A DNA stretch of 36,271 bases from Terramyces sp. JEL0728 (taxonomy: Eukaryota; Chytridiomycota; Chytridiomycetes; Rhizophydiales; Terramycetaceae): assembly GCA_027603945.1 (NCBI GenBank), contig JADIIU010000127.1, positions 1 to 36,271 on the forward strand. The letters are read 5' to 3'. Shown in pieces: positions 1 through 36,271 of the stretch. The notes below the pieces were generated by a model. It saw only the letters and a list, made by a program, of their open reading frames with translations, had not been told where the DNA came from and did no database searches. Positions within the stretch are counted from its first letter, which is position 1, and the number at the start of each line of letters is the position of its first letter. A program made the translations under genes and the position numbers.

Positions 1-1176
1 GGATGTTAATAATGGCATAGTCGCACCTCTTTCGCCGTTACTATCAAGTGATACCTTTCCTGTTGTTGTTTCGTGGTCAGGGAAATTGAAACTCTGCGGA
101 ACTTGCATCTGGCTATTCAATTCTCCTATAATTAGATCCTACGCACCATTGACAAGTTTCGTAATGTTATTTCCGTTTGCTTTGACAAGCGCATCAAAGC
201 CAAGAACCATTAAATCCACACAGCTGCTGTGGAAATAGCCAAAAGGACCGCTACTGTTGGTGGATGAGACATTTGCACCTGGATTGCCAACATTTAATCT
301 GTTTGCCTTCCAATAATCATCAAATGTGTCAGCAACTGAACCATCTGCTCGTTCAAGAGGAAACAAGTATGACGTCCCCACCACAGACTGAATAGGCACC
401 ATTTGCTGAAGGGCATCTGAACCAATCCAAAAGTACCCAGGACCGTAGCAACCAACGATTGTTGCTTGTTGCACAATCATTTCGTATTCCGAAGTAAATC
501 CAAAATACACGATAATTTTCGCCTCGGCAGATATGATTTGCTGGGCAATTTGGTTAGCAGCGTTAACATCTACGTTGGTTTCAACTAGTTGTCGGGATAA
601 TACGGTAATGTTATATTGTGACGCGTAGTTAAGGAATGAAGAAATAGCACCGTTTCCATAATCTTCATCCGTGTTGATGGTAGCGATTTTTAACCATCCG
701 TTTGCTGCCAGATACTGAGCCATTGTCAAAGTAGCAGCATTATCGTTTGGGATAGTTCGGAAAAAGTTGGGGTAGAGAGCCTTGTTTCCCAAAGATGGGT
801 TAGTTGAAGATCCACAGCACATTGGAATCTTGTAGTTTTGCAGAATTAGCGAGCTGACTATTGACATTGACGAGTAACCGGAACCAAACACAAAAAGCTG
901 ATTATTGAGAGCCATATCCAAAGCTTGAGGAACCAACTGTGCTTTGCTACCTTGGTTATTCAACAAAGTAGGCACAATTTTGGCATTCGGGTGTATAAGA
1001 GAGCTGTTTTGATTCATTTGATTAATGCGGAGGAAAACACCTTCAATTTCATCTGACAGATCGTTTGTCCCGCCAATATAAAACATTAATATTCCTACAT
1101 TGATAGGTATGGTGCCGTTTGGAGAGAGGGACTTACATACGCCTAACAGTACTGAAAGCAGCGCGAGCAGTTGCAT
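1..1176 (-). CDS. Class C (GABA-B-like) receptor A, N-terminal ligand-binding part, partial at left edge
   Basis: Starts at the ATG at 1176 with a hydrophobic signal peptide (MQLLALLSVLLGVCKS). It continues as a periplasmic-binding-protein type 1 (ANF-receptor) lobe pair of about 345 residues, with typical stretches such as FVFGSGYSS, FFRTIPND and INTDEDYGNGA. A 21-nt intron at 126-146 (ends CTAATTATAG) joins LVNG to ELNSQ. The next exon runs to LDSNGERG, the usual end of the binding domain, and leaves the window before any membrane segment. Near position 24 the frame breaks by one base compared with the paralogue at the right edge (see findings). By family analogy it would sense an extracellular amino-acid-like ligand at the plasma membrane; the ligand is unknown. 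A GATAAA box at 1213-1218 is a weak TATA candidate. The 159-bp spacer to the amylase stop must hold both that gene's 3' end and this promoter. Confidence 0.85.
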
Positions 1177-1335
1177 AGTAAAATGTTAGGTGATGTCACA
1201 TCGACCTTCGTGTTTATCCCTCAGAGAAAATTCTTCCATTGTTGGCTTCAAAGTTGGAATAAGTGGAATAATTTCAATCATTCTTTCAAATGAAACGACA
1301 AGACGTGGATTGTAACCAGGAAACAATCGTTTATT

Positions 1336-3753
1336 CTAAGTGCAGGATGAAGGAATTCCCAGGTCTGAGCTTGCAGGTAGTCCTACCCAGCTACGCATTG
1401 CGTTGATAATTTGTCGGTCTCTATGGACTCTAGTGTACATGAATGGGATCCAACCGCCTCCGTTATCAAAACAACTATAACCGCAGGCATTTGAATCATG
1501 TGCAGCGACATTTGGGCATGATTTGCATCCAGTTTGGTTACCTTTATAAAGAGCACAGTCAGATAATCCATCCAAGAATCCATTTTCATTGTTTGGACCA
1601 TACGAGAATGAAGACAAGACGACTTTAATTGCCCAATCATTGTCTCTTCTGTTGAAAAGCAACAGCTCAAAGTTGCGATGGGACTGCAGATTCTTATCTT
1701 TGATCAACACAGAGCCGTATGATTGCATATCGCGACTGGACGACCCAGCATTTTGTTGATCGTGATCATCATTTTGGCTACAATTAGGTACGACTTACAT
1801 TACAAATCTTGATGGAGGCAAGATCCAGTTTCCACAAATTGGCATCTCTTTTGGGTAATCTGAGCTCCAAATTTTGATTTGACTGATTTCGGCAGCGGTA
1901 AAGCCATTGGCGGCCAAGGAGTTGTCAAATCCTTGATAAAAGTTGATAGAACTAGTCCCGTCGCAAGCTAGGATATCCTTTTCACCCCCAAGAATAACTT
2001 CCAACCAAGTTAGGAAATCAGCTGGAAGAGCACCACCAAGGTTTCTCTTAACTTTGGCCAATATCTTTGCAATAGAAGCAGGAAGAATTTGTTTGGCAGC
2101 GTCGAATCTGAAACCAGAAAACCCAATGCTGATATAGTCGGTCATTAAATCTGCAATTCTTTCTTGCACTCTATCGTGCCCAGTGTTCAAATCAAGTAAC
2201 CCAGACAACCACCCAGCATCAAGTTGAATAGGATCAGTCCACGAGCCCAAAGTTCGTTCACAGTGAAAATCGGATGGAAAGTATGGAACTGAGGGGAATT
2301 CATTCCCAGGGTACTGTCCATTTTGATTTGCCATATATGTGCCCCATTGTGTAAAGAATGGACTATTATCAGTACCGGATTTCGGACCCCAAGTAGCACA
2401 GCTGTTACCGCCTCCAGGATTTCTGTGATTTTGGATATCATTGCCACCACCAGACATGTGATTAACCACAGCGCTATTGTTAACAATCAATTACTCTGCG
2501 TAGACTCGGACGCCTAGTGATCTGCAAGTTTGAATCATTTTGCGAAGCTCAGCTCTGGTGCCAAATCTTGAGTGAAGACGGTAGGAAACAGGTTGGTAAA
2601 TGAAATACCAAATGTTGAATACATTGTTATCTTGCAGCCAGCTATCAGAAGTTACATGCTCGTTTGGTGGATGAATTTTGACACCCAAGTAGCCTGCTTT
2701 GGCCAACATTGGACACTCTGCTTCAACTTCTGTCCATTTCCAGCCAAACAGATCTACAATAGCACCAAATTGGCCGTTCTTGAATTGAGAGATGTTTGGA
2801 ATTGCGACATTGCTCCACACCAAATCAACTGGATCCAATACAAGCTGCGCGCCATTTGGATCGATTACTTGGATATTGACAGCAGAGGTTTGAGTAGTAG
2901 TGTATGGCTGGGAACTGGAAGTAGAAAAGGTTTTTCCTCCGTCAAACGAATATTGAAGTGGCAGATTCATCTTGGAGTTGGCAAGAACACTGACAGTAGC
3001 AGATTGCATTCCAGAATTGTATACGACGTGAGCATGGCCAGTTAGGACACTGTAGTCTTGGTAGGTTGGTTTGTAATTTGAACTATTTCTGTTTGGGGTC
3101 TGCCATGCACGAACATCTTGGGATGGATCAATCTCAATATTGTTGCCGACACAGCTATCATGTCCATTGAAGTTGTTGCAGCCAGTCAAAACAGGGACGA
3201 CAGTATTAGATGGTACAGTGCCGGCTGTTTGTGTTGCAGGAGAAAGTGTAGTTTGGACATTGGCAGTAGTTGGGGCTGCGGTTGCAGAGGCGATTGGAAC
3301 AGTTGCTACGTCTGTAGTTGAAGTATTGGCAGCAACGATGGTACTCGTAACTGCTGGGATGCTGCTTTGAGAGCATTTGTAACACCTATCTAAAAAGTAA
3401 ATTACCATGGAACGTTGCTTGGGTTTGGACTAATTGGATCCCAGCAGCAACCATTGCTAGCACATTGAGTAGAAGTGACTCCAGTGTAGCCACAATCGAC
3501 TTTTGCAGTAGAAGTAGCAGATTGAGATGAGACAGTAGTTGCTACTGCGACAGAAGCTGTGGAAGTTGTGCATACGTAACACCTAAGATTACATAACACC
3601 GTACCATGGATCATTGTTTGGATTTGGGCTGACAGGAACCCAACAACAGCTTTTAGCTACACACTGGCTTTGGGTAATGCCAGTGTATCCGCAATCTACT
3701 TTAGATGAAGCTCCCAGTGACGCTGAGATTAGAAGGTGGGCGATTAGATTCAT
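1336..3753 (-). CDS. Secreted alpha-amylase (GH13) with two N-terminal trefoil (P-type) domains
   Basis: Five exons (3605-3753, 3406-3582, 2495-3385, 1799-2473, 1336-1777) separated by introns of 22, 20, 21 and 21 nt give a 777-residue protein. Order: signal peptide (MNLIAHLLISASLGAS), trefoil 1 (about 20-55), trefoil 2 (about 80-113), a Ser/Thr/Ala-rich linker, a beta-rich region that may bind carbohydrate, then GH13. The linker suggests O-glycosylation. Catalytic signatures are present: region I DAVVNH (406-411), region II GFRFDAAKQ with nucleophile D530, region III TWLEVILG with acid/base E564, and region IV QNDDHDQQ with D637. Each splice restores a motif: the first two rebuild the PWCY ends of both trefoils, the third DAVVNH and the fourth RFVIQNDDHD. 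It should cleave internal alpha-1,4 bonds of starch or glycogen outside the cell. AATAAA directly follows the stop. A TATA-like box lies at 3780-3787. Confidence 0.9.
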
Positions 3754-3779
3754 TCTATGATAATCTGAAAGAATCTCAC

Positions 3780-4842: not shown

Positions 4843-5328
4843 TTATTTGGACAAGAATTGGTTTTGAAGTGCCATTGCTACAGCAGCATTGATTTGGTCT
4901 TGTATCTGTTGGGTAGTAACTGGTATAGCTGCATTTTGAGCCTAGAATTAACAATGGATTACTGCTTGCTGCTTTTCATTGACCAACTGTCTCAGCCACT
5001 TAATTTCCATATCTTGTTCCTTGATTTTTTCCTCCAGCTTGGTGACTTTATCCTGTAATTCTTTAGCTTCTTTTTGAATAGCTTGTTCTCTGGCCTTTTT
5101 CTTTGCTCTGAATCTGGCAGAAGCTTCAGTGTTTCTTCGGCGCTTATCGTCTTCGTCGTCTGCTTCTGAAATTGGTGTGCGTTTCTTTTCGTCCTTCTTT
5201 TGTGCTTCTAGTTCTTCTGCTTTGGATGAAAATTCTGTTGCTAGCCAGAAATCAAGGTCACTTGGTCGTTGCTGATTCCAGCTATCGATTGATAGCAGGT
5301 TTTCAATAGAATCATTTTGCGAGTTCAT
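4843..5328 (-). CDS. bZIP transcription factor (GCN4/CYS-3-like basic region)
   Basis: Two exons (4963-5328 and 4843-4941) around a 21-nt intron (ends TTAATTCTAG) give 154 residues. The basic region NTEASARFRAKKK (about 66-78) has the N-x2-[AS]2-x2-F/C-R signature and is followed by a leucine-zipper-like coiled coil (KLEEKIKEQDMEIKWLRQLV). The tail is Gln/Ala-rich. Upstream is an acidic and Ser-rich segment with DLDFWLATEF that may be an activation motif. NTEASARFRAKKK is the form found in fungal regulators of sulphur and amino-acid metabolism, so a nuclear DNA-binding role is likely; the target pathway is inferred only. I start at MNSQNDS because it has A at -3. An in-frame ATG at 5469 would add 47 basic residues and is the alternative. 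Confidence 0.85.
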
Positions 5329-7188: not shown

Positions 7189-8332
7189 ATGATTGAAACT
7201 CAGCGGGAGATGACGGGGTTGCTGATGACCTTGCTCGATCCCTACCTGGAGTACATTCTGAATACAGTCGGGGAAGTGATTAAAAGCATACCAGATAAAC
7301 CGTATCTGAAAACAAGTTTAAAATGCAAAAGCTGCTTTGCAAAAGAAATAGAATGCTCACACAGGTACACCCATATCCTGTCAATCATCAACCCAAAGAC
7401 AATCAACAACCATGTGATTCAGAAACCAGTCAAGAACCAGTACTATGTACAAAGCAAGTACTTTTACGATCAAATGTTCAAACTGATTGAACAGAAATAC
7501 CACGAGTACTCGAAAACAAACAAGAACCAAGTCAAGTTGGGCAACATACAAAAGCAATTTTTACGTAAATGTCCACCTTTTTGTTATTATTGCCAATATT
7601 GTAAAGAAACGGAGCGGGGATATCAGAAACCAAAGCACAAGCAAACATGTATGCTGTACGTTCCAATTAGGGTTTTGGCAGAGCTGGAATGGACCGATTA
7701 CCAATCAGCCGGAGATAAATTCACCGTTTATCAAAGAGAAAAGTATTTTGAAATCAGCGGCGATTATAAAAAGAGATATCCAACGATGAATCTATCAATG
7801 GTACAATAAACTTACGTAGGCGAACCGCGTATTGAACGAACTCATCGTAAAAGAAACTAGATTTGACCCAAAACTGAACGAGCTTAATATCCTGTTTGAG
7901 CCAGGCAGTGCTCTAGAGTTTAAATTTGGGATCAAGACCAAAAATTGGGTATTTGAAAAACAGAAATTGATGGTGAAGGAGGATATGAAATTGTACGATG
8001 TAAAGAATAGGCTAGGTAGCTGTATAGGTACTTTTGTAAATGGTGCCTTGGAGACACAGGGGTTGGAAGTTACTAGTCCGCTGACACCTACCAGCGTCCA
8101 AGAATTTGACAGCCCTATGCCTGTAAAACAAGAGATATCCAAAAGTAGTGATTCTATTAGCATTGCATCTGAAGTGGATCCAAATTCAGTGGAAATGGCT
8201 GTGGAGGAAACTGGTGAAATACTACCGTCAAAGAGAAGGTTCAAGAGAATCAAAATCGAATACCTGCTCAACCACGACGAAGATGCAAACCTACTCTTGA
8301 ATTTTGCAGAAACAACCAACTCGAGTTACTAA
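7189..8332 (+). CDS. Unrecognised protein with Cys/His cluster and SUMO-consensus lysine
   Basis: Exons 7189-7800 and 7820-8332 flank a 19-nt intron (ends CTTACGTAG) and give 374 residues. The frame opens further upstream but without an ATG, so MIETQREM is taken as the start. A first half has paired cysteines (CKSC near 43-46, then CSH) and a second cluster CPPFCYYCQYC followed by H and C, which could bind zinc. The second half is charged and ends in a low-complexity Ser/Glu segment containing VKQE, which fits the SUMO-acceptor pattern psi-K-x-E, and a basic stretch SKRRFKRIKIE that could be a nuclear localisation signal. I do not recognise a family. The stop lies 30 nt from the stop of the convergent SH3-PX-PB1 gene. 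Confidence 0.75.
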
Positions 8333-8361: not shown

Positions 8362-8367
8362 TTTATT
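8362..8367 (-). terminator. Polyadenylation signal overlapping the stop codon of the SH3-PX-PB1 gene
   Basis: AATAAA on the minus strand contains the TAA stop codon (8363-8365). Cleavage 10-30 nt downstream would fall inside or beside the last codons of the convergent plus-strand gene ending at 8332. Confidence 0.65.
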
Positions 8368-9877
8368 TGACATAGAATTTCAATTTCTTGAGTGACAAGA
8401 GTAGGGCAAGATCATCATCACCGCAAAGCGGAATCATATTATTGACTTCATCGTAGTAGTACAAGGATTCAAATGAGAATCCTAGACGATTTTCGCTTTC
8501 AATAATCAAATCTTCAAAAGTGAATCCTTTTGGTTCTTTCCATGCAATGATTTCTTGTCCGAGGACAAGTTTGATTGTGATCGAAGTGTCGTGTTGGTAA
8601 TCTTCTAGTAGATCCATAAGGGTATCGGCTACATCGATTGGATCAATTGCAGATGAATTTAAATCACCTGCACGGACTAAAAAGAATTTAGATACATGTT
8701 CGGAATCTAGCACATGTTCTGGAATAATCACGAGTTCAGATAAATAACGGTGTAAATCAAATCTGCATTGTTGGGCTTGCTGAGGAGTCATTTGTCCTTG
8801 TGGTGGTGCCAAGAATGGAATTGATCTTGGTTCTCCTCCTCTGCCTGCTTCGACTGGGAAACGAGTGATTAATGTAACTTGCAGTGCCCAGAAATCATCA
8901 TAGTTTCTCTTTAAAATGTTTAGACTGTCATCAGAGTACTTGACATGGACAGTAAAGACCCACTTCTTGTCAACCCCCTGTTCGCAGTATTGCACAGTTG
9001 CGGATTCGACATATGGATTGTAATTGTCTTGCTGGTAGCTGTTTTTAGATGGCTCCTTGAATCCCTTGGCATCTCCATAAGGACCTTTTGGCTCTGCAAA
9101 TGGACTCTTCTTTTCACTGTAAGGGCTTTTTTCAAAAGAATTCTTTTGGTCGTAATTGTTCTTTGCTTCGGTCCAAGGAACTTCAGAGTATCTATCACTA
9201 TATTTGTCGTATTTGGCGTTACCGTTCTTTTCGTAGTCGGCTTGCTCTTTTTCATAGTAATCAAATTCATCTTGGTAGCGAGAGTCAGTTTGAGTTTGAT
9301 ATCTAGAGTCTTTTCTGTAACGTTCATCTTCATATTTAGAGTCGTAACGGCCCTCGTCAGGATAGCTATCGTAGTTTTCCTCATATCTTGGTTCTTCGTA
9401 GCTAGGCTCTTCCGGATAATCTTGGTACCTATCGTTTTCATAATTTCCGTTTTGCTGCTGGTATTGTTCTTCAGCAGCATTTCTATTAACATTTTGAAAG
9501 TGAGACATTGGCACAAGCCCACGCAGCTTCAAAATAGGATTCGTAACTTCATAAACTTCCAATTCTGGTCTTTCTTGGATCACCTAATAATTAATGATGA
9601 TTACATAGAAAAAGTCTCCCTTTTGAAACGATAATTCACCAGTTTTAGTTGCTTGGAAGGCTTTGGACGCCTTTATGATCTTTTTTGGAGGTAAATTAAA
9701 GATTTGTTTGGGATTGGAAGAACCTCTTGGCTGAATTTCAATTGGTGGCCTTCTCCTGCTTTTGCTTTTCCTTGGTGGATTTGACGGTTGAGAATCCGCC
9801 TGGTAATATTCGTTTCTTTCTTGTCTATAATCGTTGTCCCTTGGATTTACTGGCACCACAGAGTAGTATGGATTCAT
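8363..9877 (-). CDS. Bem1/Scd2-like polarity scaffold: SH3 - Tyr-rich linker - PX - PB1
   Basis: Exons 9605-9877 and 8363-9583 with a 21-nt intron (ends TTAATTATTAG) encode 497 residues. An SH3 domain (about 66-121) is split by the intron and ends in RGLVPMSHF, as in Bem1 SH3 domains. Residues about 137-225 form an acidic, Tyr-rich repeat-like linker (many YEE, RYE, RYQ units). The PX domain (about 283-397) has the phosphoinositide-binding R in LKRNYDDF and the Bem1-type FPVEAGRGGEPRSIPF. A C-terminal PB1 (about 424-497) has an acidic OPCA motif (YYDEVNN, CGDDDL). Bem1 links Cdc42, its exchange factor and PAK at membrane polarity sites, and this protein plausibly does the same, although it has one SH3 where Bem1 has two. 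I start at MNPYYSV (A at -3); an ATG at 10012 is the alternative. Confidence 0.87.
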
Positions 9878-11189: not shown

Positions 11190-11210
11190 GCAGGAGCGAG
11201 TTGCTGTGGG

Positions 11211-11218
11211 TTTTTAAA
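11211..11218 (-). promoter_or_regulatory. TATA-like box of PX-PB1 paralogue 2
   Basis: TTTAAAAA on the minus strand within GCTTTAAAAACCC, 21 nt upstream of the ATG at 11189. This implies a very short leader. Confidence 0.5.
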
Positions 11219-13559: not shown

Positions 13560-15347
13560 ATGAATTCGGAATCTCTGACTAGAATATTTGGCAAGGAAAC
13601 AGTAAAAAAGATTCATTCAGCCAAAGTGTTGGTAGTAGGTGCAGGAGGTATCGGATGTGAACTGCTAAAAAATCTTGTAATGACTGGATTCCACAACATC
13701 GAAATAGTACCTTGAACTAACCCAGATCGACTTGGATACCATTGATTTATCCAATTTGAACCGTCAATTCTTGTTTCAGAAACAGCATATAAAGAAACCT
13801 AAAGCTGTTGTAGCCAGAGAGTCAGTTTTAAAGTTCAATCCCAATGCGAAAATCGTTTCTCACTTTGCAAGTGTATTCGATGAAAAATATGATCTGGACT
13901 GGTTCAAATCGTTTGATCTGGTAATGAATGCACTGGATAATATCGGTAGCTCTTGTTAATGTAGCTGCTAGGAGACACGTTAATAAAATGTGTTTGGCTG
14001 CTAATATCCCATTGATTGAATCTGGCACAGCAGGCTATCATGGTCAAGTTTCAGTTCATTTCAAAGATATCACTTGCTATGATTGCGTTCCTAAGCCAAT
14101 TGAAAAAAAGACGTATCCAGTTTGTACAATTAGATCAACGCCAAGTGAATCGATCCACTGCATTGTATGGGCAAAGAATTATTTATTCAATACTCTATTT
14201 GGGATCCCGGAAGAAGAAGAACAGTCGCCAGAAGATGACGGTAAGTTAAATTAATGTAGCCAATGAATTAAACAATTTAAAAAAGGAAGCAGAGGCACTA
14301 AGGGATATGTGTGCCTCGATTGGCAAACCAGATGCCGGAAAGAAAGTGTTTACAAAAGTGTTTTCAGTGGATATCAATCGCTTATTAAGCATGGAGGATT
14401 TATGGAAAACAAGACAGAAACCAACACCACTCGGATTTAAAAAAGTTGGAGAGTTTAAACAATCTGACCCGTTAAAGTTTGATCAGTCAGTATGGTCGTT
14501 GGAAGAGAATGTCTCTATCTTTTTACAAACTATTGACGAATTGGGGAAGCAGTTGTGTGCAAATCGTGAAAACGACGCCAAATATGCAATGTCATTTGAT
14601 AAAGATGATGAATTGGCTTTGAATTTTGTTACCGCGACTGCTAATCTTAGAGCGCATATATTCCATATCGAAAAAAAGAGTAGATTCTCAGTCAAAGGTA
14701 TTTTGGGGCTAATTGAGAAATGGCGGGTAATATCATACCTGCTATCGCAACAACAAACGCAATAGTCGCAGGAATGATGATTGTACTAGCAATTAAAGTA
14801 CTTTCCAACCAGAGGGATCAGTGCCAATATTCATTCCTTGCTTATGGTGGAGATAGAACCCACTACTTGATGAATGAACCGCTACAGAAACCTAATCATA
14901 AATGCGCAATTTGTTCAAACAATTACATTACGATTACTATTGAGCTGGAAAAGCCGTTGTCTGCGTTGATTGATTTGATTAATGATATGAATATCAATGG
15001 CGAACTTACTGTTCAAGATCAAAACCGACTTTTATATGATATTGATTTTGAGGACAATACTGACTCGTCACTCTCTTCGTTAGGCATCAAGAAAGGCACT
15101 CAGCTAACCATCACAAACGACGATGACGATGAATCAAAGTGTTATAGCATCATTGCCTTTATCAAAGAGTAAATTTTGTTAATGTAGGGGAGAGCCAACT
15201 GTCGAATACGGTACCTTGAAAGCTCGTCCCGTTGCTGACACTGTAGTTAATGATAGTGGAAAGAGACTGGGTGATGAGCTGCAGAAACCCAATACCAAGC
15301 AAGTCTTTACAATTGGAGATGAGTTTGAACCCATTTCATTAGATTAA
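13560..15347 (+). CDS. UBA2: SUMO-activating enzyme E1 catalytic subunit UBA2
   Basis: Six exons (13560-13706, 13726-13945, 13965-14240, 14260-14697, 14718-15168, 15188-15347) and five introns of 19, 19, 19, 20 and 19 nt give 563 residues, close to the family's length. Visible signatures: nucleotide-binding [34 protein letters not shown] (rebuilt across intron 1), [15 protein letters not shown] (rebuilt across intron 2), the catalytic-Cys block [27 protein letters not shown], and [16 protein letters not shown] (rebuilt across intron 4). The C-terminal ubiquitin-fold domain ([14 protein letters not shown]) is present. With AOS1 it activates SUMO by adenylation and thioester transfer to UBC9, mainly in the nucleus. 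The predicted cysteine of the thioester is in PVCTIR. The human protein carries a longer tail; here it ends soon after the UFD. Confidence 0.96.
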
Positions 15348-21995: not shown

Positions 21996-24618
21996 ATGGA
22001 TGAAAACGAAAAGAAATGTAATGCTATCACTAAACCAGGGACGATTGGCATATGCGCAATGGATACAAAAGCCCGATCAAAACCTATGCGCAACATTCTT
22101 GATCGATTGCTCGCCTCTGGCGATTTCTTGCTTGTTACTTTTGGTGACAAGGTGATTCTTGATGAGCCAGTCGATCATTGGCCTCTTTGCGATTTCCTAA
22201 TTTCATTCTTTTCCACTGGATTTCCCCTAGAGAAGGCTATTGAATATGTGAAATTGAGAAAACCTGTTTGTTTGAATGATTTGCCAATGCAGCAACTGCT
22301 ACTGGATAGAAGACTAGGTATTTGGTTTTAATGTAGTTTTGGCAATGTTGGATGCTGTTGGTGTACCAACTCCAAGCCGTCTTGTCACTTGGCACCAGGA
22401 TGCTCCTGTTCTTACAAAGGAAGTGAAAATGAAAGCCAAACGAATTGGCTTTGATATTGAAAAATATGCAAATACAACAATCACCGCGAATATGGTAGGA
22501 ACAGAAGAAATCCAAGTGGAAAATAATACTCTAAAGAAGCCGTTCGTAGAGAAGCCAGTTTCAGGGGAGGATCACAATATTTACATTTACTACTCTAAAG
22601 AAGAAGGCGGCGGTATTCGCAAGCTGTTTAGAAAGAAGGGAAACAAATCCAGCGAGTACTTCAAAGAAGAATCGGATATCAGATACGACGGAGCGAATTC
22701 TTACATATACGAAGAGTTTATGCAAGTAGATAATGCGGAAGATGTCAAAGTGTATACAATTGGACAGCATTATTCTCATGCCGAAACCAGAAAGTCTCCG
22801 GTGGTTGATGGCGTTGTTCGTAGAAACGCTGATGGAAAAGAAATCAGATATGTCACCGAATTATCTGCAGAAGAAAAGGAAATTGCACGCAAAGTTTGTC
22901 TCACTTTTGGACAAATTGTGTGTGGATTTGATTTGCTGCGTGCAAACGGAAAGTCCTACGTTATTGATGTAAACGGATGGTCATTTGTGAAAGGAAACCA
23001 GGATTATTACGACGAATCGGCTTCAAGAATCAGGAAAATCTTTTTGAATGAGGTTACCAGAAGGGGAAACAAACTCGTAAGACAGCAGACTTTCAGCTCC
23101 AAAGGACAATGGAATATGAAAGCGTTCTTGTCTGTAATGAGACACGCAGACAGAACTCCTAAACAAAAAGTGAAATTCTTTTTTGAAACAAAACCATTCT
23201 TGGAATTGGTAAGAGGATGCGAAGATGAAATTGTGTATAAAACAATAGACAAGTTCCAAATTGTGATAGATACTGTCAAGAGCTGTATCGAAAATTCGAT
23301 TGGCGATGTAGATGCATTGAAGCAGATCGACAACATTTTGGAACACAAAGGAAAGCTTAGTGGAACCAAAGTACAATTGCGACCAATTTTTGACAAGGGA
23401 ACCAAAAACTTTAAGAAAATGCAGTTGATTATCAAATGGGGAGGATTGTTTACACATGCCGGGTATCTCCAGTCCAAAGACTTGGGAGAAAATCTTCGAA
23501 CTGATTTGAATATAATCAACAAGGATCTAATCCAAGATCTCAAAGTAATCAGCAGTTCGGAAAAAAGAGTAATTGATACAGCCGAAACATTTTGCAAGGC
23601 GCTACTAGACAAAGATATTCCATCGGATTTAATTGTAATCAACAAAGAAATGTTGGATGACAGTAATGCTGCAAAGGAACAGACAGACTTTGTCAAGTCC
23701 AAATTACAGCATATTCTAAATCCGGATATGCACGCGAAACCGCCGTCAGTATTTGTAATGCCAGAAGGATGGACTGACTTTGCAGGACCAATCCGAGCAA
23801 TGATTGAGCTAATGAAAAGAATGCGGGTTATTATGGATGAAAATCTCAAAGTACCTCGCTCAAAGGTCGAGTTTTGCTGCTTTGAGAATGAAAAACTGTT
23901 CTTGGAACGCTGGGGTAGCTGATACTAACTTAGAAAAACTCTTTAGAGAATTTTGTGATGTCGAACACAGCAAATTTGAACCATCAAAGATTAGCGAGTT
24001 GTACGATGCTTTGAAATTTGATTTGCTCCACAACAGAGCGTTCTTGTACTACACGTTCAAGTATGATAATGAAAACTTGGTTCAAAGCCTCTGTGTGCAA
24101 TCCAAAGCATTATTTGATATTATTGGTCCGCACGAGTTTGGTATTGAAAATAAGGAAAAACTGGAAATTGGGAAAACGAACACGCGGTTCTTGCTTAATT
24201 CTATTCACACTGGATTGGTGGCTGCATCAATTTCTCCCAACCCGCTTACCAGACTCTATTTCACAAAGGAATCCAAAGTATATTGTTTATTGAATGTCGT
24301 GCTGTTAAACGGATTGAAAACCAAAGTAATCCCGACAGATATTGCTGAGCTTGATTGTAATATTGCTTTAACGTAGACTTGACTCAGATTACATTTGAGC
24401 TTTATGAAAGGAACATGGGGATTGATGAAGATCGCAACGACCCAGAGTTTTCGGTGAGGATCGGTCTAAGCCCTGGAGCTCACGATCCGAACTTGATTGA
24501 GTTGCAATTAGATTCTAGCCATGCCCTTTCCGTTCAATCTCGAAAATGGTTGACTGATCATATCCCTCTTGAAGAAGCCCTAAGGTGTTTGTTGCCTACC
24601 GCCACGGAAGCAGAGTAA
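21996..24618 (+). CDS. Inositol hexakisphosphate/diphosphoinositol kinase (VIP1/PPIP5K/Asp1 family)
   Basis: Exons 21996-22317, 22337-23914, 23934-24356 and 24377-24618, with introns of 19, 19 and 20 nt, give 854 residues. The N-terminal kinase half is highly conserved: [70 protein letters not shown] (joined across intron 1), and an ATP-grasp core with GFDLLR and [18 protein letters not shown]. The histidine-phosphatase half starts with [18 protein letters not shown], continues LERWEKLF (joined across intron 2) and ends [15 protein letters not shown] (intron 3). It makes inositol pyrophosphates (1-InsP7) in the cytosol, affecting phosphate signalling and, in fungi, polarity and microtubules. 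The C-terminal YFTKESK has Lys748 where the family has the catalytic His (YFTSESH), so the phosphatase may be dead. The protein is somewhat shorter than usual. ATG chosen: MDENEKK. Confidence 0.95.
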
Positions 24619-24747: not shown

Positions 24748-27359
24748 ATGCTCCATACTTTATTGCTGGCTTTGGATGTGCTTGCGAGCAGTATATTATT
24801 TTAACATAGTGAATCCGCCGATACGGACTTATGATTTCATAACAAAGCCAACGATATATTCAACAAATGGCAAATTGCACCTAAAGTTCAAAAGCTTCAA
24901 TTCCACCTTTCATGCGGAATTAGAATCTTCAAGTTTGGATTTTAACGGGTTTGCAGAAATACATGGAGACGATGGTGTTCAATTTTTACCACTACCATAC
25001 CACACTGTTTATAACGGGATAATGAAGGAGAATAATAGAATCGTCAAGGGGTCTTCTGCGCAAATAGTTATTACAAGCCAGAACCCGCTGACTATGGAAG
25101 GATCAATCATAATGGATACCAACTACCACATAAAGCAAATTAATCAATACAAGAGGGCACAAAGGAGGGTAAGCTTTATTTGATAGAAGATGGATGTAGA
25201 AATAGCCTCTCCTCTATCTAGACAGCCGGAGGATTACTGGTCGGATTATATTTTGATCAAGGAAGATTACGGGGTTATTGAAAAGCACGACCATATCTCG
25301 CATTTGATCAAGAGAAGCCCTTTTTCTACGTGTGCTACTGATACCTCTGCCTACACTGGCAAATCGATGAAGTTTGGGGTGAGCAAAGATAGTTCGAATT
25401 GTCCACTGCCAAATAAAAAGATACTATTGATGGGTGTCGCTGCCGATTGCTCGTACGTGCAAGCAAAAGGCGGGGTCAGTCAAGCACTACAGTCAATCCT
25501 TTCAAACTGGAACTCTGCAACTCAAACTTACGAATCTGCATTTAATGTTCAATTGGGAGTTGGAAAAGTAATGATTCAACAAAGTTGTACTGCAGATAAA
25601 TCTTTAGCATGGAATGTGGATTGCTCTAATCCTTCTTTCACTATTAGTAACAGACTGTCGGCATTTGCACAATGGAGGGGAACCCTCGGAGATGACGGAC
25701 TTGGGTTGTGGCATTTGATGACCCAATGTAGCACTCAGCCTGCTGTGGGGATTGCATGGCTAAGCACATTATGCCAGCAAAATGCAGTTTCACAGTCAGA
25801 TCCGTCAGGGAGTGGTGGGACGGTGTTTGTGTCTGGCGTTGGAGTATCTTCAATTGTACCAACGGAATGGAAAGTAGTCGCACATGAAATTGGCCACAAT
25901 TTCGGTGCAATTCACGATTGTACTGATTCGACATGCAGTTCAAGTGGAACCTCAAATGGATGTTCTCCATGTTCACCATGCAATTGTAATAGCCAATTTT
26001 GTAACTTGTATCTGATAATAGTGATGAATCCACTGGATACTGCAACGACAAATAACTTTTCCTCGGGATCAACTTCTTTGATATGTTCTGGAATATCGCA
26101 AATGGGCTCAAAGTGCTTGAAAGGTAATGGAAGAATAACACTTAGATCCTTCGCAAGTTTCTAATGTTATTCAACAGGGCATTTGTGGCAATGGAGTTAG
26201 AGAAGGCAACGAGCAGTGTGATTGTGGAACTCCTGACCAGTGCAAAGATAAATGCTGCAATGCGTCTACTTGCACTTTTGCAAGCGGTGCTGTTTGTAGC
26301 GGTGCTGATAATTGTTGCAATGCAAGTACTTGTCAACTGCTTGCGCAAGGAACCAGCTGCCATAAATCTCAAGGCGTTTGTGATACCGATGCTGTATGTA
26401 CTGGCACCAACGCAACTTGTCCTACAAATACATTCTTCAAAGATGGCACCAGCTGTGTTGTTTCTGGCACTAACGCACAATGTGCGTCCGGTATTTGCAC
26501 CAGTAGAGATTTGCAATGTAAAGCGTCTAGTTTGGGATCCGCAGGCACTGGTGGTAATATTAACATTGTTACCAACTCTGCTTGTCCAGGATTTGGAAAT
26601 GACTGTGGGTTAAAGTGCCAGGACAATAGTGGCAACTGTTATGTTCTTAATGGCAACTTTGTTGGTACATATTCTATTAATTTAGATGGAACTTCTTGCG
26701 GGGGCGATGGCCGTTGTAAAAATGGAAGCTGTGAAGGAGCGTCTCTATTTGGAATGGCGTCTGTCTGGATTAATGCCTATCCGCAGTATTTTTACCCTTT
26801 GCTAGTCCTGACGGCATTAGTTGTAATTTCAGTTATTTGGTCGTGTGCCAAGTGCTGCTATTACAAGAGTTTTGCAAGAAAGAAACCAGCCCGTCAGCCA
26901 AGAATGCCAAAAGCACCTAGACCAACGCTTCCCTCCCAAGTGACTGTTGCAGAGAATGTACCTGAAGAATACCCTGGACAAACCTTTCCAGCCCCAGAAC
27001 GACGTGCAAAGAAAGCAAAGAAACCTCGCTCAAATGAATTCCCAAACGGTTCAGGAGAAGATTTGGTTCCGCAAGATGGGCAAAACAACTACACGCAATC
27101 AGATTACCGAGGAGAGCGCAATCAAAGTGGGTATCAACCTGAAGCTTGGCAGGATCAATATCAGTACCGCAGTCTGGATCCTCAACAAGATTATCGCACA
27201 TCGCAATCATACGATCCTAATTCTATATATCCAAACCAAAACGGTCCTAGATATGCTCAACCTCCGAACCAAAGAACATCTCAATCGTATGCTGCGAAAC
27301 CAAGCTACATGCAGCCTGAGTATCAAGATGACTTTTATAACGGACCTGAGCGCAGATAA
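24748..27359 (+). CDS. ADAM-family transmembrane metalloprotease
   Basis: Five exons (24748-24790, 24810-25168, 25190-26000, 26022-26123, 26146-27359), with introns of 19, 21, 21 and 22 nt, give 842 residues. Exon 1 supplies the signal peptide (MLHTLLLALDVLAS). The prodomain ends near a KR site (HLIKRS). The reprolysin domain has the zinc site HEIGHNFGAIHD and the Met-turn QFLMNP. That Met-turn appears only after removing an in-frame, stop-free 21-nt intron at 26001-26021. The disintegrin/Cys-rich part starts ICGNGVREGNEQCDCGT and contains a duplicated CCNASTC unit. A transmembrane helix (PLLVLTALVVISVIWSCA) leads to a basic/Pro stretch and a Gln/Tyr-rich cytosolic tail with repeated RTSQSY. 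By family it sheds or degrades surface proteins. Exon 2/3 could use an 18-nt alternative acceptor, but the 21-nt form fits branch spacing. AATAAA lies 5 nt past the stop. Confidence 0.92.
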
Positions 27360-29255: not shown

Positions 29256-30105
29256 ATGCAACAACCACAGATGACTACGAATTTCGAAGCACCTCCAGCT
29301 TATGCAACCGATGTGCTCAATCCCCCTCAATGGAATGGGCCTCCTGGCCAGCTTATCCCTTGGTTAGCCAATGGGTCGATTTTGGACAAATATGCAATTT
29401 TTGGAGCTGACAGCCAGGTTCTTCAAATCAATTTATTGCCAAATGAAACAGTAGTTTCTCAGCCAGGTGCCATGCTGTACAGAGGAACTGATATTGGAAT
29501 TAAAACCAGCGTTGGTTCGTGTGGAGATGGATGCAGACGAATGATGGGTGGCGAATCATTCTTTAGAAACACTTATACTAACCACGGAAAGACGGTTGAA
29601 AGCATTGCTATCAGCCCTGCATACCCAGCAAAGATTATTCCAATTGATTTGTCACGATGTGGAACTATTCTTGCCAAACCAGGTGGTTATATCGCTCATA
29701 TTGGCGAAGTTAAAATTGCCTTTCAGACAGTCGGGGCTGGAGCAGGTAACTTTAACTAATAAAGCTTGCTTCGGAGGTAACGGGCTGTGGCTATTGAAAC
29801 TCTCTGGAACCGGTACTGTCTTTTTAAATGGTGGTGGATCGGTCATGGAGAAGCTGTTGGCACCTGGTGAGAACTTGCTTGTCTATCACGACGCGTTAGT
29901 TGGTTTCAGCGAAACTGCAAAATATGGAATCAAGAGGACCGGTGGCTGTCTTACGTGCTGCTGTGGCCATGAAGGCTTATTCAATACGATGATTACAGGC
30001 CCAGGTTTGGTCATGGTTCAGTCAATGTCCAAAGAAAGATTAGCAAAGGTATTTGCTCCTCGAGGAATGAAAAACGGCGGTAGAGACGCAAACAACGATA
30101 ACTGA
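29256..30105 (+). CDS. AIM24-family protein (TRAP-like beta-helix), paralogue 1
   Basis: Exons 29256-29745 and 29765-30105 around a 19-nt intron (ends CTAATAAAG) encode 276 residues. A Pro-rich N-terminus (APPAYATDVLNPP, NGPPGQ) precedes the AIM24 / tryptophan-RNA-binding-attenuator-like domain with ETVVSQPGAMLYRG, GGESFFRNTYTN, YPAKIIPIDLS and LAKPGGYIAHIGEV. After the splice come ACFGGNGLWLLKLSGTGTVF and a Cys cluster CLTCCCG near the C-terminus. Yeast AIM24 is mitochondrial and affects MICOS stability, but this protein has no evident mitochondrial presequence, so its site of action is open. I start at MQQPQMT, which matches paralogue 2; a TTG-initiated extension is not needed. Confidence 0.9.
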
Positions 30106-30164: not shown

Positions 30165-31042
30165 ATGCAACAAGCGCAAATGACAACAGCTGGCTTTCAA
30201 CCACCACCAGCTTACTCGAATGATATACTATTCCCGCCAATCTGGCAAGGTCCGCCAGGCCAATTAACCAATTACCAAGCCTTAGGTTCTGTTCATCAGA
30301 AATATGCGATTTATGGTCACGAAACACAAGTTTTACAAGTCAACCTCTCTCCAGGTGAAACTGTGGTATCTCAACCAGGAGCAATGTTATACCGTGGCCA
30401 AGACGTTACCATTTCAACTGGGGTTGGTGGTCTTGGACAAGGATTCGGTAGAATTATGGCTGGCGAATCTTTCTTCAAAAATACCTATACAAACAAAGGT
30501 AATATACTTGAAAGTGTTGCTATTAGTCCATCATTCCCGGCTAAAATCATTCCTATCGAGCTGTCACGTAGCGGCACAATTTTGGCCAAACACGGAGCTT
30601 ATATTGCCCATATTGGTGATGTTAACGTAACTTTTCAAATAGTATCAAGTATGACCGCAGGTAGTCTTTATTAATCCCAGGTTGCTTTGGAGGCAATCGA
30701 ATGGTTTTGCTGAAACTTGAAGGTAGTGGTACCGTGTTCTTGAATGGTGGTGGAAGTGTAATGGAAAAAATCCTTGGACCTGGCGAATCGATATTGCCTC
30801 ATCACGATTCTCTAGTTGGGTTTGCCGCAACTGTTCAGTATGGCTCCAAAAAAGTAGAAGGCTGTCTCACCTGCTGTTGTGGTGGTGAAGGTTTATTCAA
30901 CTTTCAACTGACCGGTCCTGGGTTAATCATGATTCAATCAATGTCAAAAGAAAGATTGAAAGCTATTTTCCCTCCTCCTATAACTCATTCTGGTGGTGAT
31001 CTAAACGATACAAAACAAGTGCCAGTTCGACCAAGCAACTAG
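30165..31042 (+). CDS. AIM24-family protein (TRAP-like beta-helix), paralogue 2
   Basis: Exons 30165-30660 and 30681-31042 with a 20-nt intron (ends TTAATCCCAG) encode 285 residues. It is collinear with paralogue 1: MQQAQMTTAGFQPPPAY, ETVVSQPGAMLYRGQDV, GGESFFKNTYTNKG, FPAKIIPIELSRSGTILAKHG, then ACFGG-equivalent AGCFGGNRMVLLKLEGSGTV and CLTCCCGGEGLF. The intron sits at the same codon and phase as in paralogue 1, although its sequence and length have drifted. It starts only 59 nt after the stop of paralogue 1, so promoter and preceding 3' end overlap, or the two are co-transcribed. AATAAA lies at 31069-31074. Confidence 0.9.
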
Positions 31043-31094
31043 AAAAAGTTTCTTTTAATACCTTTCGAAATAAATTCAAATAAAAAAAAGCATT

Positions 31095-32187
31095 TTAATT
31101 GTCATCTTCAAGAACCAGGTAGTCGAGACTGGCTTTACCTCTTCCTGTTGTAGTTTGATTTACTGCTTCGCCAATATTTCCATCCAAGCTTTCAAAAACC
31201 ACTATATCGCCAACAGATAGTTCCACCCAATCGAGAGACTTGGGTTCGTGTTTCTTTTTTACAATAAATCGTTTTCCAATTCGTTCGTCCAAGAGTCCTA
31301 CTTTTTCGTAAGAGATATCCAATTCATGCAAAGAAATGCTCTTCACTAGACCCCTTGAACTGGAGACTGATATTTTATCTGTTTCCTTTTCTGCGGTTTC
31401 TTGTTGGTGTAAAAGGTCGGTATTCACTTTAAAATCAGATTCCGATGTGTAGGAGTGCACTCGAGATACTCGTTTACCTCTTAAATGTGTTAGTAACGGC
31501 ACTGCGCAGAATATGAATGCTCCTACAACGGCTAAGCTGATAGCACAGATCAAAGTAAATCCCGCTGCCGAAGTCCAGTCCGAGGTGCCGCTGGCAGAGC
31601 TGAATTTCTTTTGCTTGCAGCAGCTTTCAGTGGGATAGTCCTTGCAGTATTCGGTATATAGATCATTGTCCAGCAAACCTACGATCAACAGGAGTGTTAC
31701 CACACGAAATTTGATCCTTTTGTACACCAGAGATACAGCTGTTACCGGCACCGTTGCAGAACTTTCCAATGTCAAATATAGTGCTCCTTCGTCTTTCATA
31801 CAATGTTTTCTGTGAATTGTCTTTGTAATCAATTGGACACTTTGATTTGTCTTCCAGCAGTGTTGATAATGCACCTTGGTAGTATTCGCAAACACTTGAA
31901 CAAACAGGTGTTACCTGCTTGTTGCAGTCTTTCGAGTAATGATAAAGGTCAGTCATGCAAATAAACGAAAGGGAGTACTGAATAGACTCACCGTTATATC
32001 CAGGACAGTTGAAATAGTTGCTCCAGATTTCCTTTTTGCGATCTCCTGAAACTAGCTGGTTGATATTGGATTCCCAGCTTGATTGATCGATTTTGGTTCC
32101 GTAGACTTTTGAAAGGACAGTTGTATCAATTGCTCCGGTGAATGGTGCGCATACAGAGGTGCTTGGAATTTGTGTGCAGTTGGCCAT
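31095..32187 (-). CDS. Cys-rich ectodomain - TM - degenerate SH3 protein (paralogue 1)
   Basis: Exons 31701-32187 and 31095-31678 around a 22-nt intron (ends TTGATCGTAG) encode 356 residues. The Cys-rich ectodomain (CAPF, VYG, CPGYNGESIQYSLSFICMTDLYHYS, CSSVCEYYQGALSTLL) is shared with the next two genes. One TM helix (FTLICAISLAVVGAFIFCAVPLL) separates it from a Ser-rich tail with an SH3-like end (RFIVKKKHEP, VELSVGDIVVFES). The SH3 is degenerate: ALYDY-type residues and the tandem Trp are missing. No classical signal peptide precedes MANCTQIPS and no upstream ATG exons were found. Cys spacing loosely recalls Frizzled-like CRDs, which is inference only. A TATA-like TTTAAA lies at 32220-32225. 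Confidence 0.82.
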
Positions 32188-32219
32188 AATGCTTAGAGTG
32201 CGAGCTGGTATTTGTATGA

Positions 32220-32225
32220 TTTAAA
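32220..32225 (-). promoter_or_regulatory. TATA-like box of CRD paralogue 1
   Basis: TTTAAA in CTTTTTAAATC on the minus strand, 32 nt upstream of the ATG at 32187, followed upstream by a CCGCCCC block. Confidence 0.45.
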
Positions 32226-32317
32226 AAGTTGGGGCGGAGCCTTCAAAAAAGTGGGCAGCAAGGTGTGTAATTACAGACTGACAGCAAGAATTGATCAGTA
32301 GACGAAATAATAAACAA

Positions 32318-32323
32318 TTTATT
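32318..32323 (-). terminator. Polyadenylation signal containing the stop codon of CRD paralogue 2
   Basis: AATAAA on the minus strand spans the TAA stop (32319-32321) entirely: the last codons read AGT GAA TAA A. Confidence 0.65.
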
Positions 32324-33173
32324 CACTCGGAACGGCATAGTACATTCTCTTCCCGTGCTTGACCCCCATTGCAATACCAAATGCAACTGGGAATATTACC
32401 ACGTTCACCAACAGAAAGAAGGCTGCAGCCGCGCCAGTAAACAAAAGACCAACAATCAATGGAAGCGAGAAATTGGAATTGGCAAATGGAGACAGCTGAG
32501 GAGATGGCACCGAGCAGCAAGTGACGTTGGGATTCTTTAAGCAGTAGTTTTCTTTAGATCCGGTATCACCACCAAAACCTGTAATTAATTCCTATTTACC
32601 ACAAGTAGAATTGTCCAGTGCTATCCCCGATTGGCACACGTCCTGTCCTTTAAAGTAAGTCCCACTGGTGAATAGAGACTTGCACTGATCGGCGGCATTT
32701 TGAACTACCTTTTTGTGATTATCAAATGCAGTTTGCTGCTGTTGTGTTATATTGGTGGTCAAAAAGTTTGTGCATTCTCCAAGGACGACTTGCTTCAAAC
32801 TGTCGCCGTAAGTATCGCAAGACGATGAACATAATGGCGGGTACTTTAGTGTATCGTTTGTTGGTGGGGTATTGCAGGCAGCACTATAGTAAAAAATGTC
32901 TGTAAGGCAGAGGAAAGTCCTATAGTATTGGATCAGTTCTCCACGATATCCTGTACAGCCAAGGAAATCCGACCATCCTGTGCGCAAATTAAAAGAACCG
33001 GCAGAGTTATCTAGAATCAACTGATTCCAGCTCGTTGCTGTTACGAACGAAACGTTTGCTTTTGGCCCGAAATATACTTGATTTAGTACGTTTGTGTCTA
33101 TGAATGCACCATTTGTCCAAGGTGCACACGCTGATTGGAGTGAAACTGGAACGCAGTTATTTGGTAATGCCAT
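32319..33173 (-). CDS. Cys-rich ectodomain - TM protein without SH3 (paralogue 2)
   Basis: Exons 32600-33173 and 32319-32578 with a 21-nt intron (ends TTAATTACAG) encode 277 residues. The ectodomain has CAPWTNGAF, VYFGP, CTGYRGELIQYYRTFLCLTDIFYYS and PPLCSSSCDTYGDSLKQV, matching its two neighbours. The second exon contains CCSVPSPQ and a TM region (LPLIVGLLFTGAAAAFFLLV) with a further hydrophobic stretch, then ends after a short basic tail (KHGKRMYYAVPSE), so the cytosolic SH3 found in the paralogues is absent. No signal peptide is evident at MALPNNC. The intron position matches that of paralogue 1 (after a conserved CG). TATA-like ATAAAAAG at 33199-33206. A small upstream ATG frame (MVARHR) precedes the TATA and is probably not transcribed. 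Confidence 0.82.
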
Positions 33174-33198
33174 TTTTTTAGATTTCTCAAATCTCCCA

Positions 33199-33206
33199 CT
33201 TTTTAT
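33199..33206 (-). promoter_or_regulatory. TATA-like box of CRD paralogue 2
   Basis: ATAAAAAG on the minus strand (GATAAAAAGTGGG), 25 nt upstream of the ATG at 33173. Confidence 0.55.
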
Positions 33207-33456
33207 CTGTGTCTCGCCACCATTTTAGTTCACTTCGCCTGTCGCAAATCCATAGGCAAAAAGATTAGCTCACTGCCTTCGCAGATAAAGCCTAGACTGT
33301 GGAATTAATAGTCTGGAAATATTCTTGAAGCATACCATACTTAATGCAGCGCTTTGACCAGTTCATGCAAATCAAAGCTGTATCTTTCAAATCAGAGTCA
33401 ATCAAATCTTTCAAAGTCAACTGTTTGAAAAATGAGCATATTTATTTAAAAGTACA

Positions 33457-34533: not shown

Positions 34534-34552
34534 GGGGATTTTTCTATTCGCG

Positions 34553-34560
34553 CTTTTTAT
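34553..34560 (-). promoter_or_regulatory. TATA-like box of CRD-SH3 paralogue 3
   Basis: ATAAAAAG on the minus strand (GAATAAAAAGCGCG), 19 nt upstream of the first base after the ATG complement at 34533. This would place the transcription start at or even within the first codons unless scanning starts upstream. Confidence 0.45.
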
Positions 34561-34831: not shown

Positions 34832-34837
34832 TTTATT
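34832..34837 (-). terminator. Polyadenylation signal containing the stop codon of receptor B
   Basis: AATAAA on the minus strand includes the TAA stop (34833-34835) after the last Lys codon. Confidence 0.65.
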
Positions 34838-36271
34838 TAAACTTTGTACCTTCAACCATCGACATGGACATGTGTATATTACTCCATGAATGAAAGTAAG
34901 AATCCCACTCCTTTGCATTTTCAGGAGTTTCATAGGTGATTTCAAAGACCTCATTATCTAGAAAGTATCTTCGGAGAGTTGGAGACACTGAATCAGATTT
35001 AAAAGCCTGCAGATTCCCTAATTTCCATACTTCGCCATCACCCCGCTTGGTAGCTGTTTCGTCTTCAAGGGTTAGCTTTGTTAGTCTGCAGAACGAGACA
35101 ATGTTGGCAGTTTCTGATACCATGTTTCTTGGTTTCGAATCAGAAAAGAATCCAGGTTTTCTAAGGATTACTGCAGTTCCACTCGTTGCCTTTTTAACTT
35201 TTGGTTTTTCTTCTGGCTTTCCATCCGTTGATTTGCCAGTTCTGTTATTGGAGGATCTGCCAAAACTTCTCATAGATACGACATTGCCTTGGACGCAGTA
35301 ACTTATCTTTAACGAGAAGGACGAAATCAAGTTGAATATTAGCAAGTAAAATTCTGCAATCATTTTTACTCCAGCTTTTAGTCTGAATCCTAAACCATTC
35401 GTGAGTAAAATGGAAATTGCAAATAATACAATCTAAATTAGGATAAGAATACTATAACAGCGTTATAAATTGCAATAGTGATTACTTTTGTTTCGCTGTA
35501 TTTCGATGGTACGTTTCTTGTTTTGAAAGCAATGAGAAGGTTGAGTACCAATATAACAGCGCTGTACATAGCTAAAGCAGCGACGATTCCACTTTGGTAG
35601 GATGTCGACGAGGACGAGCACGTCCAAGCATATGTTCCTTTTACAACAGCATGCGCTGCTGGTCTTGGGGCATCCTGGGCATTCCAAATTGCAATAATAA
35701 TTGCTGACGGAATTCCAAAAATGAATCCAATGGCAATCGTAGCATAAGTGTTAAAGATGTACTTTGTTGGATTGGTGAAAATCATGTACAATCGGTAATT
35801 TTTCATAAACATTAATCCATAGTAAACGGCAAAACAAATTGGTAGAATTACAGAGTCAATCGTGCATGTAGCTACAGTTGGTTTGCCGACCATGGTCAAT
35901 AAATCAAACCAAGCAATAAAAATGCATAATTGCATTGCGAAACCAACGAAAACATCTGAAGCCCTTATCATTGGATGGTTTCTGTAGATGAGTGTACCCA
36001 AAATAGTTGTTAAACTAACGATTACTCCAATCAGAAACAGGGCAATTGAGAGAATACCCAAAGGATCCCCACTAGACTGTAAATAATCAGCAACTGTCGT
36101 AGGATCGATAGCGTCGGCTGGCTTGTAACTGGCACCTCCTGGATAATAGTAAGGTTGAAGTTGATATTCAACCCCATTGGACCACTTTGCTACTTGAATA
36201 AGACTTGCGTCTGCTTGAATATTCATTATCGCGTAGTCGCCACCTCTTTCGCCATTACTATCAAGTGATAC
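34833..36271 (-). CDS. Class C (GABA-B-like) receptor B, 7TM domain and C-terminal tail, partial at right edge
   Basis: Exons >36271-35453 and 35432-34833 around a 20-nt intron (35433-35452, ends CTAATTTAG). The fragment begins LDSNGERGGDYAIMNIQ, the end of the ligand-binding lobes, then enters a 7tm_3 domain directly without a long Cys-rich linker. Helices include ILSIALFLIGVIVSLTTILG, CIFIAWFDLLTM, VILPICFAVYYGLMFMKNY and YATIAIGFIFGIPSAIIIAI. The intron falls inside TM6 (NAVI|IVLFAISILLTNG), and TM7 (MIAEFYLLIFNLISSFSLKI) follows, so the downstream 600 bases are part of this gene and not a separate one. The cytosolic tail (about 150 residues) starts basic/Ser-rich and ends in a folded-looking segment. 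Family role: ligand-activated G-protein signalling at the plasma membrane; the ligand is unknown. Confidence 0.9.

Follow-up and report, generated by a model that had tools for sequence, protein, structure and literature searches.

Ultra-short introns have been published for nucleomorphs, mikrocytids and ciliates. The introns of the chlorarachniophyte (Bigelowiella) nucleomorph are 18-21 nucleotides (nt) long and those of the mikrocytid Mikrocytos mackini 16-17 nt (PMC10245619), Stentor coeruleus has introns of 15-16 nt with the branch-point A at position 10 or 11 (PMC9505925), and the introns of Paramecium bursaria have a median of 24 nt (PMC12862383). Trichomonas introns go down to 23 nt (PMC12316389). 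In the survey by Irimia and Roy (2008), the short-intron, intron-rich cases, namely P. tetraurelia, the B. natans nucleomorph and the dicyemids, are without a branch-point signature (PMC2483917), and among fungi the introns of Cryptococcus neoformans, with a mean of 63 bp, are cited as relatively short (PMC8476143). The stretch analysed here, called the window, is the whole 36,271-nt contig JADIIU010000127.1 (C127) of Terramyces sp. JEL0728, a chytrid (Chytridiomycota) of the order Rhizophydiales, and the elements in question are its introns. A first-pass annotation of the window had proposed a uniform class of ultra-short introns and had likened their sizes to those of the nucleomorph and of ciliates, a likeness that the published lengths bear out. 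In the window and a larger sample of the genome, 230 of 236 introns are 18-24 nt long, far shorter than is usual for fungi, and from their motifs it is very likely that an ordinary U2-type spliceosome cuts them out, in which case it would read each as one compact unit with two nearly fixed short arms.

The contig belongs to a 231-contig draft assembly of 15.0 Mb, a nuclear size. The sample outside the window consists of bases 10,001-20,000 of contigs C1-C20 (200 kb), selected by position and blind to content; window and sample together comprise 236,271 b, about 1.6% of the assembly, and counts refer to both unless the window is named. An automatic gene finder returned 158 gene models, 102 of them intron-bearing, with 236 introns at a density of 1.25 per kb of coding sequence; scaled to 15.0 Mb, this density would give a genome total of about 15,000. 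Two introns are 18 nt long, 69 are 19 nt, 97 are 20 nt, 45 are 21 nt, 14 are 22 nt, two are 23 nt and one is 24 nt, and Terramyces therefore falls among the ultra-short lineages, in which most introns are below about 30 nt and within a narrow band. The class is present at every scale sampled, its range being 18-24 nt and not the 19-22 nt first proposed, and the view that it belongs to a fungus-like nuclear genome agrees with the chytrid affiliation, the assembly size and the genes for U2 and U5 small nuclear RNA (snRNA). If retained, 43 of the 45 introns of 21 nt would introduce an in-frame stop, as would 37/69 of 19 nt, 63/97 of 20 nt and 4/14 of 22 nt. The stop excess in 21-nt introns may reflect selection via nonsense-mediated decay or a detection bias; since 21-mers that lack a stop are more easily overlooked, we make no claim of selection.

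What sets these lengths? The quantisation is that of two independently varying arms, with the branch-point A at position 14 or 15 and the 3' splice site 5 or 6 nt further on. Among the 230 introns of 18-24 nt, the A of the branch motif YTAAY is at position 14 in 113 and at position 15 in 98 (211 in all), and 194 form a two-by-two core in which the final G follows the A by 5 or 6 nt; within this core the arm lengths are independent (Fisher p = 0.77). The four YTAAY motifs are present in 158/230 introns. Base composition was taken from the 225 introns with the branch-point A at 14-16: the exon side of the 5' site reads AAG, A occupies +3 in 92%, G occupies +5 in 39 introns, which is background, T occupies +6 in 142, a pyrimidine occupies -3 in 90%, and T content is 42% in the spacer before the branch motif versus 28% in the spacer after it. 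The 236 introns begin with GT in 230 cases and GC in six, the 3' AG having been imposed by the finder. The six GC-AG introns (L007, L014, L019, L020, L024), a type to be added to the first-pass annotation, are 20-21 nt long and have G at -1 in 6/6. These are the marks of U2-type introns, GT-AG with rare GC-AG ends and a branch motif complementary to the GUAGUA of U2. The 5' site consensus of U12-type (minor) introns is RTATCCTTT, which the 5' sites here do not match (+4 A in 54%, +5 C in 17%, +6 C in 20%). Two calls of 14 nt were rejected, both reading as 20-nt GC-AG introns, and at the site of one of them the farnesyl diphosphate synthase alignment has two extra residues.

The genome encodes a canonical U2 snRNA (140 bits), whose GUAGUA is able to pair with the branch motif, and a canonical U5 snRNA with its loop (86 bits). 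Two transfer RNA genes of 55.8 bits each stand just after the U5 gene (L025, 1901-1982 and 2330-2411). U1-C is present and well conserved (gene L035, about 1500-1655, minus strand, G000:C76), and its zinc-finger match, at 52.4 bits over positions 7-38 before splicing, reaches 70.2 bits over positions 1-38 once the introns are taken out. In its gene, introns of 21 and 22 nt, the second with the 5' site GTT, flank an exon of 10 nt; an exon shorter than its flanking introns is found here inside the gene for a 5'-splice-site recognition protein. The spliced U2AF2 protein matches human U2AF65 structures in the tandem RNA-binding domains (212 bits) and in the third domain (75 bits), and its N-terminal segment matches S. 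pombe U2AF59; it is these spliced-protein matches that identify it as U2AF2. We take the N-terminal segment to be the one that binds the U2AF small subunit, and a small subunit is therefore predicted.

The major-spliceosome parts seen are U2, U5, U1-C and U2AF2, and the U1 and U6 RNAs were not found, in searches that had no positive control. For U1, an Rfam family search without a positive control found none, and a gapped pattern with changes allowed opposite +4 and +5, likewise uncontrolled, gave 5 matches versus 3 for the reversed control pattern. For U6, Rfam gave only two near-identical matches of 27 bits, below the cut-off and with no recognisable AGC triad, at G000:C199:4823-4928 and C111:34941-35045 (L003, L004), both of which look wrong, and canonical U6 was not found with an 18-mer allowing 2 mismatches or with the human sequence, again in searches without a positive control. 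The canonical RNAs carry ACUUACCU in U1 and ACAGAGA in U6, and a G at +5 pairs with U1 C4 and with the U6 ACAGAGA box. These negative searches, together with a G at +5 that stays at background (39/225), would suit a spliceosome whose U1 and U6 RNAs are lost or strongly changed and which chooses 5' sites via altered pairing. Against such a spliceosome stand the conserved U1-C, the canonical U2 and U5, the lack of positive controls in the RNA searches and the draft state of the assembly in 231 contigs, and we regard it as possible but unlikely.

The ordinary U2-type reading draws further support from proteins that keep their homology across the junctions. Ten multi-intron proteins made up the first of two batches, and 35/45 of their junctions are within a Pfam or Protein Data Bank (PDB) match; in the second batch, of 11 proteins (UBA2, VIP1 and nine others), 16/23 are. 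Introns of 19-23 nt account for 50 of these 51 homology-crossed junctions and a 26-nt intron for the remaining one; one of the 51, at residue 383 of a WD-repeat protein, is covered by a profile that scores below its curated cut-off. The gene for RuvBL1 (contig C14) is interrupted by six introns measuring 20-22 nt, and the protein predicted from it shows a gap-free alignment of 449 residues to human RUVBL1. UBA2 and VIP1, both in the window, match solved structures across junctions, and UBA2 also matches other chytrids. The spliced UBA2 model is a 98% match to the GenBank protein described as Terramyces sp. JEL0728 E1 ubiquitin-activating protein uba2 and agrees with it at 4/5 junctions; this public gene model, at least, therefore already holds such introns and misses one. 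At junction 1 the GenBank protein is ten residues short, which corresponds to a 49-nt intron with its 5' end further upstream (13677-13725); the aligned sequences of five other chytrids have those ten residues, in register. In the tandem AIM24 paralogues, identical at 179/275 aligned residues, introns of 19 and 20 nt fall in the same aligned column.

The same junctions bear on a genome with two size classes, in which most introns would be near 20 nt and a smaller set of ordinary 50-200-nt introns would be missed by the finder. The statement in the first-pass annotation that none is longer holds for the window, where all 25 called introns are 19-22 nt, and fails in the larger sample, where 6/236 calls lie outside 18-24 nt (26, 28, 72, 183, 201 and 210 nt). 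Four of the 236 are at 72-210 nt, the 201-nt one without explanation, and the gene models leave out introns in untranslated regions, all of which suits a second class. However, none of the 51 homology-crossed junctions exceeds 26 nt, the 72-nt call, like the 28-nt one, stands at a locus end, and on hand reading the 183-nt and 210-nt calls hold ultra-short candidates; a hidden class of ordinary introns seems improbable. Much less probable still is that the segments stay in the messenger RNA and the ribosome bypasses them or shifts frame: splicing and bypassing look alike by frame restoration in DNA, but bypassing has to contend with a GT/GC...YTAAY...AG structure complementary to a U2 encoded in the genome, with the AAG exon consensus, with GC-AG variants that have G at -1 in 6/6, and with the presence of the segments in spliceosomal genes themselves.

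The spliceosomal class also stands apart from chance and from the workings of the finder. A raw pattern scan of the 200-kb sample for GTA...YTAAY...AG (lengths 12-60, spacers 0-6, no gene model) peaked at length/spacer 19/2 (47 matches), 20/2 (22), 20/3 (25) and 21/3 (24), and the remaining 339 length/spacer cells all hold 6 or fewer. A blind finder, given codon usage and GT...AG only and allowing every length of 10-300 equally, placed 36/101 GT-AG introns at 19-21 nt, versus 3/98 and 6/96 with the decoy ends TG...GA and GA...TG. Once the finder had learned a splice-site model, it called 224 introns of 18-23 nt at the real sites, versus 7, 8 and 5 with three decoy dinucleotide pairs. A high-threshold position weight matrix scan gave 18 matches at 19-22 nt versus 0 for its reversed control, too few to add much, and isolated matches at other lengths were scattered in the real and reversed scans alike. 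That the uniform length is the product of a motif-trained finder forced to introns of 19-22 nt, a notion to which the persistence of 78-128 introns of 18-23 nt after permutation of the branch-point columns lends something, is already refuted as a full explanation by the raw spacing peaks and the motif-blind peak at 19-21 nt, sits ill with the gap-free 449 residues of RuvBL1 over six introns and with decoy yields of only 5-8, and is scarcely credible.

Several further points, besides the failure to find U1 and U6 RNAs, weigh against removal by an ordinary U2-type spliceosome. DNA alone was examined, splicing being deduced from frame restoration and homology, and the branch point is taken from the motif. 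The gene models share motif terms with the intron count and the anatomy statistics, and permutation of the branch-point columns left the informed finder with 96, 78, 128 and 118 introns of 18-23 nt; this control is unclean because the 5'-site and length terms stay in the score, and the dinucleotide decoys were therefore used. The homology batches were picked for recognisable proteins and are non-random. The calls of 201 and 26 nt lack an explanation, and in 5/225 introns an earlier AG lies between the branch point and the site used. The zf-U1 family was above its cut-off in one control, E. coli, and the U2AF2 family match, at 251.7 bits on unspliced DNA with four stops, is below the curated 310.3 and was paralleled, below the cut-off, in two bacterial controls.

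On the simplest view, a U2-type spliceosome would act by intron definition on a unit that has no spare sequence. U1 and then U6 would bind GTA, the exon AG and the T at +6, making little use of G at +5, and U2 would bind the YTAAY branch motif directly. Mostly 2-3 bases separate the branch motif from the AG, which leaves no room for a pyrimidine tract, and U2AF2 would therefore have to bind upstream of the branch point, on the U-rich stretch, or else work by touching other proteins. Of the AGs about 4 nt or more past the branch point, the first would be the one used. As to history, deletions may have trimmed the introns down to the minimum that spliceosome geometry allows, while leaving them numerous.

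In the window alone, the finder called 25 introns, eight of 19 nt, eight of 20, seven of 21 and two of 22 and none other, and hand reading added four that it missed. The first-pass annotation had claimed 30 (9, 8, 10 and 3 of 19, 20, 21 and 22 nt), which comes close to this sum; the exact total differs, and one of the four hand-read introns is ambiguous because its frame is open without splicing. The seven introns that it had quoted (the alpha-amylase intron at 2474-2494, the first three of UBA2, the first two of VIP1 and that of AIM24 copy 1) are all where it placed them, with GT...YTAAY...AG. Called by the finder except where marked as hand-read, the window introns are as follows.

126..146, minus strand: 21-nt intron with a GTG 5' site, receptor ligand-binding gene; outside the Pfam match
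1778..1798, minus strand: 21-nt intron, alpha-amylase; outside the Pfam match
2474..2494, minus strand: 21-nt intron, alpha-amylase; motif structure checked, junction within Pfam Alpha-amylase
3386..3405, minus strand: 20-nt intron, cysteine-rich (trefoil-like, hand-read) repeat upstream of the amylase; hand-read, missed by the finder
3583..3604, minus strand: 22-nt intron, the same cysteine-rich (trefoil-like, hand-read) repeat upstream of the amylase; hand-read, missed by the finder
4942..4962, minus strand: 21-nt intron, bZIP gene; outside the Pfam match
7801..7819, plus strand: 19-nt intron, unnamed gene
9584..9604, minus strand: 21-nt intron, SH3-PX gene; junction within the SH3 match
13707..13725, plus strand: 19-nt intron 1 of UBA2; junction within the alignments to human SAE2 and chytrid UBA2
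13946..13964, plus strand: 19-nt intron 2 of UBA2; human SAE2 and chytrid UBA2 alignments
14241..14259, plus strand: 19-nt intron 3 of UBA2; human SAE2 and chytrid UBA2 alignments
14698..14717, plus strand: 20-nt intron 4 of UBA2; human SAE2 and chytrid UBA2 alignments
15169..15187, plus strand: 19-nt intron 5 of UBA2; past the end of the PDB alignment, GenBank protein agrees
15802..15821, plus strand: 20-nt intron, unnamed gene
18670..18689, plus strand: 20-nt intron, protein kinase gene; just outside the Pfam match
21420..21439, minus strand: 20-nt intron, alpha/beta-hydrolase-like gene (hand-read name)
21585..21604, minus strand: 20-nt intron, the same alpha/beta-hydrolase-like gene
22318..22336, plus strand: 19-nt intron 1 of VIP1 (PPIP5K); within the PDB alignment, gap-free around the junction
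23915..23933, plus strand: 19-nt intron 2 of VIP1; within the range of a PDB match
24357..24376, plus strand: 20-nt intron 3 of VIP1; within the range of a PDB match
24791..24809, plus strand: 19-nt intron, ADAM-like gene, after a likely signal peptide (hand-read); hand-read, missed by the finder
25169..25189, plus strand: 21-nt intron, ADAM-like gene
26001..26021, plus strand: 21-nt stop-free candidate intron, ADAM-like gene; hand-read, ambiguous, missed by the finder
26124..26145, plus strand: 22-nt intron, ADAM-like gene
29746..29764, plus strand: 19-nt intron, AIM24 copy 1; within Pfam AIM24
30661..30680, plus strand: 20-nt intron, AIM24 copy 2; same aligned column as copy 1
31679..31700, minus strand: 22-nt intron, cysteine-rich gene with an SH3-like tail (hand-read)
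32579..32599, minus strand: 21-nt intron, cysteine-rich gene
35433..35452, minus strand: 20-nt intron, seven-helix receptor-like gene (hand-read)

The ADAM-like gene (24749-27359) reads by hand as a metalloprotease-disintegrin with a transmembrane segment, in a chytrid. Related receptor-like gene parts occupy 1-1176 (Pfam ANF_receptor ligand-binding domain) and 34833-36271 (a seven-helix part, hand-read), and the stretch VSLDSNGERG is common to both. Three neighbouring minus-strand genes at 8363-12617 appear by eye to be diverged copies that have in common the C-terminal part of one SH3-PX protein, and three neighbouring genes at 31095-34560 encode membrane proteins rich in cysteine, of which two end, on hand reading, in an SH3-like tail.

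With 102/158 gene models intron-bearing, an annotation that admits no intron shorter than 30-40 nt would disrupt many genes here. The two arms are two measurable distances by which geometric limits of splicing can be tested, and fungal spliceosomes are among the best understood, so the question of the smallest spliceable intron is brought near tractable genetics and structures. The Terramyces introns also separate shortness from the loss of a branch-point consensus, and they raise the question of what U2AF2 does where there is no pyrimidine tract. Open-access literature yielded no report of such introns in a fungus among the matches listed, an earlier report in the subscription literature being possible, and passages from a survey of minor introns (PMC10639083) and from a paper on Batrachochytrium (PMC3569864) give no intron lengths for this group. 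On balance we favour the view, with a good deal less assurance than the U2-type reading itself, that the intron-rich Terramyces is the first fungus whose nuclear introns are nearly all about 20 nt long, as measured by a two-arm ruler (14/15 plus 5/6), against the rule of branch-point loss, with U2AF2 kept without a fitting pyrimidine tract and with U1 and U6 possibly altered.

How, then, does Terramyces compare with the systems already described? The Bigelowiella nucleomorph is alike in length range, in high intron density and in a 5' site that is largely GT(A) (PMC10245619, PMC2483917); unlike Terramyces, a fungus with a 15-Mb genome and YTAAY at a fixed position, it is a relic green-algal nucleus for which no branch-point signature is reported (PMC2483917). 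Mikrocytos mackini shares the narrow length range and the conserved sequence, but it is a parasite with a reduced spliceosome and 224 introns, whereas Terramyces would have about 15,000 by extrapolation (PMC10245619). Paramecium and Nyctotherus, both with introns of about 25 nt, and the dicyemids resemble Terramyces in having ultra-short introns in intron-rich genomes. The range in P. bursaria is wider, at 15-100 nt (PMC12862383), and for P. tetraurelia and the dicyemids no branch-point signature is reported in the 2008 survey (PMC2483917), a trait that Terramyces, with the YTAAY A at 14/15 in 211/230 introns, does not share. Cryptococcus neoformans is likewise fungal, intron-rich and short in its introns, although these are three times longer than those of Terramyces (PMC8476143). 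In Stentor the branch-point A is nearly always fixed, the 3' site is 5 nt further on and U2AF2 is present, all as in Terramyces; unlike Terramyces, it has no strong branch motif, and its first arm is 4 nt shorter (10 versus 14) (PMC9505925). All five snRNAs have been found in Stentor, whereas the Terramyces searches, made without a positive control, did not find U1 and U6.

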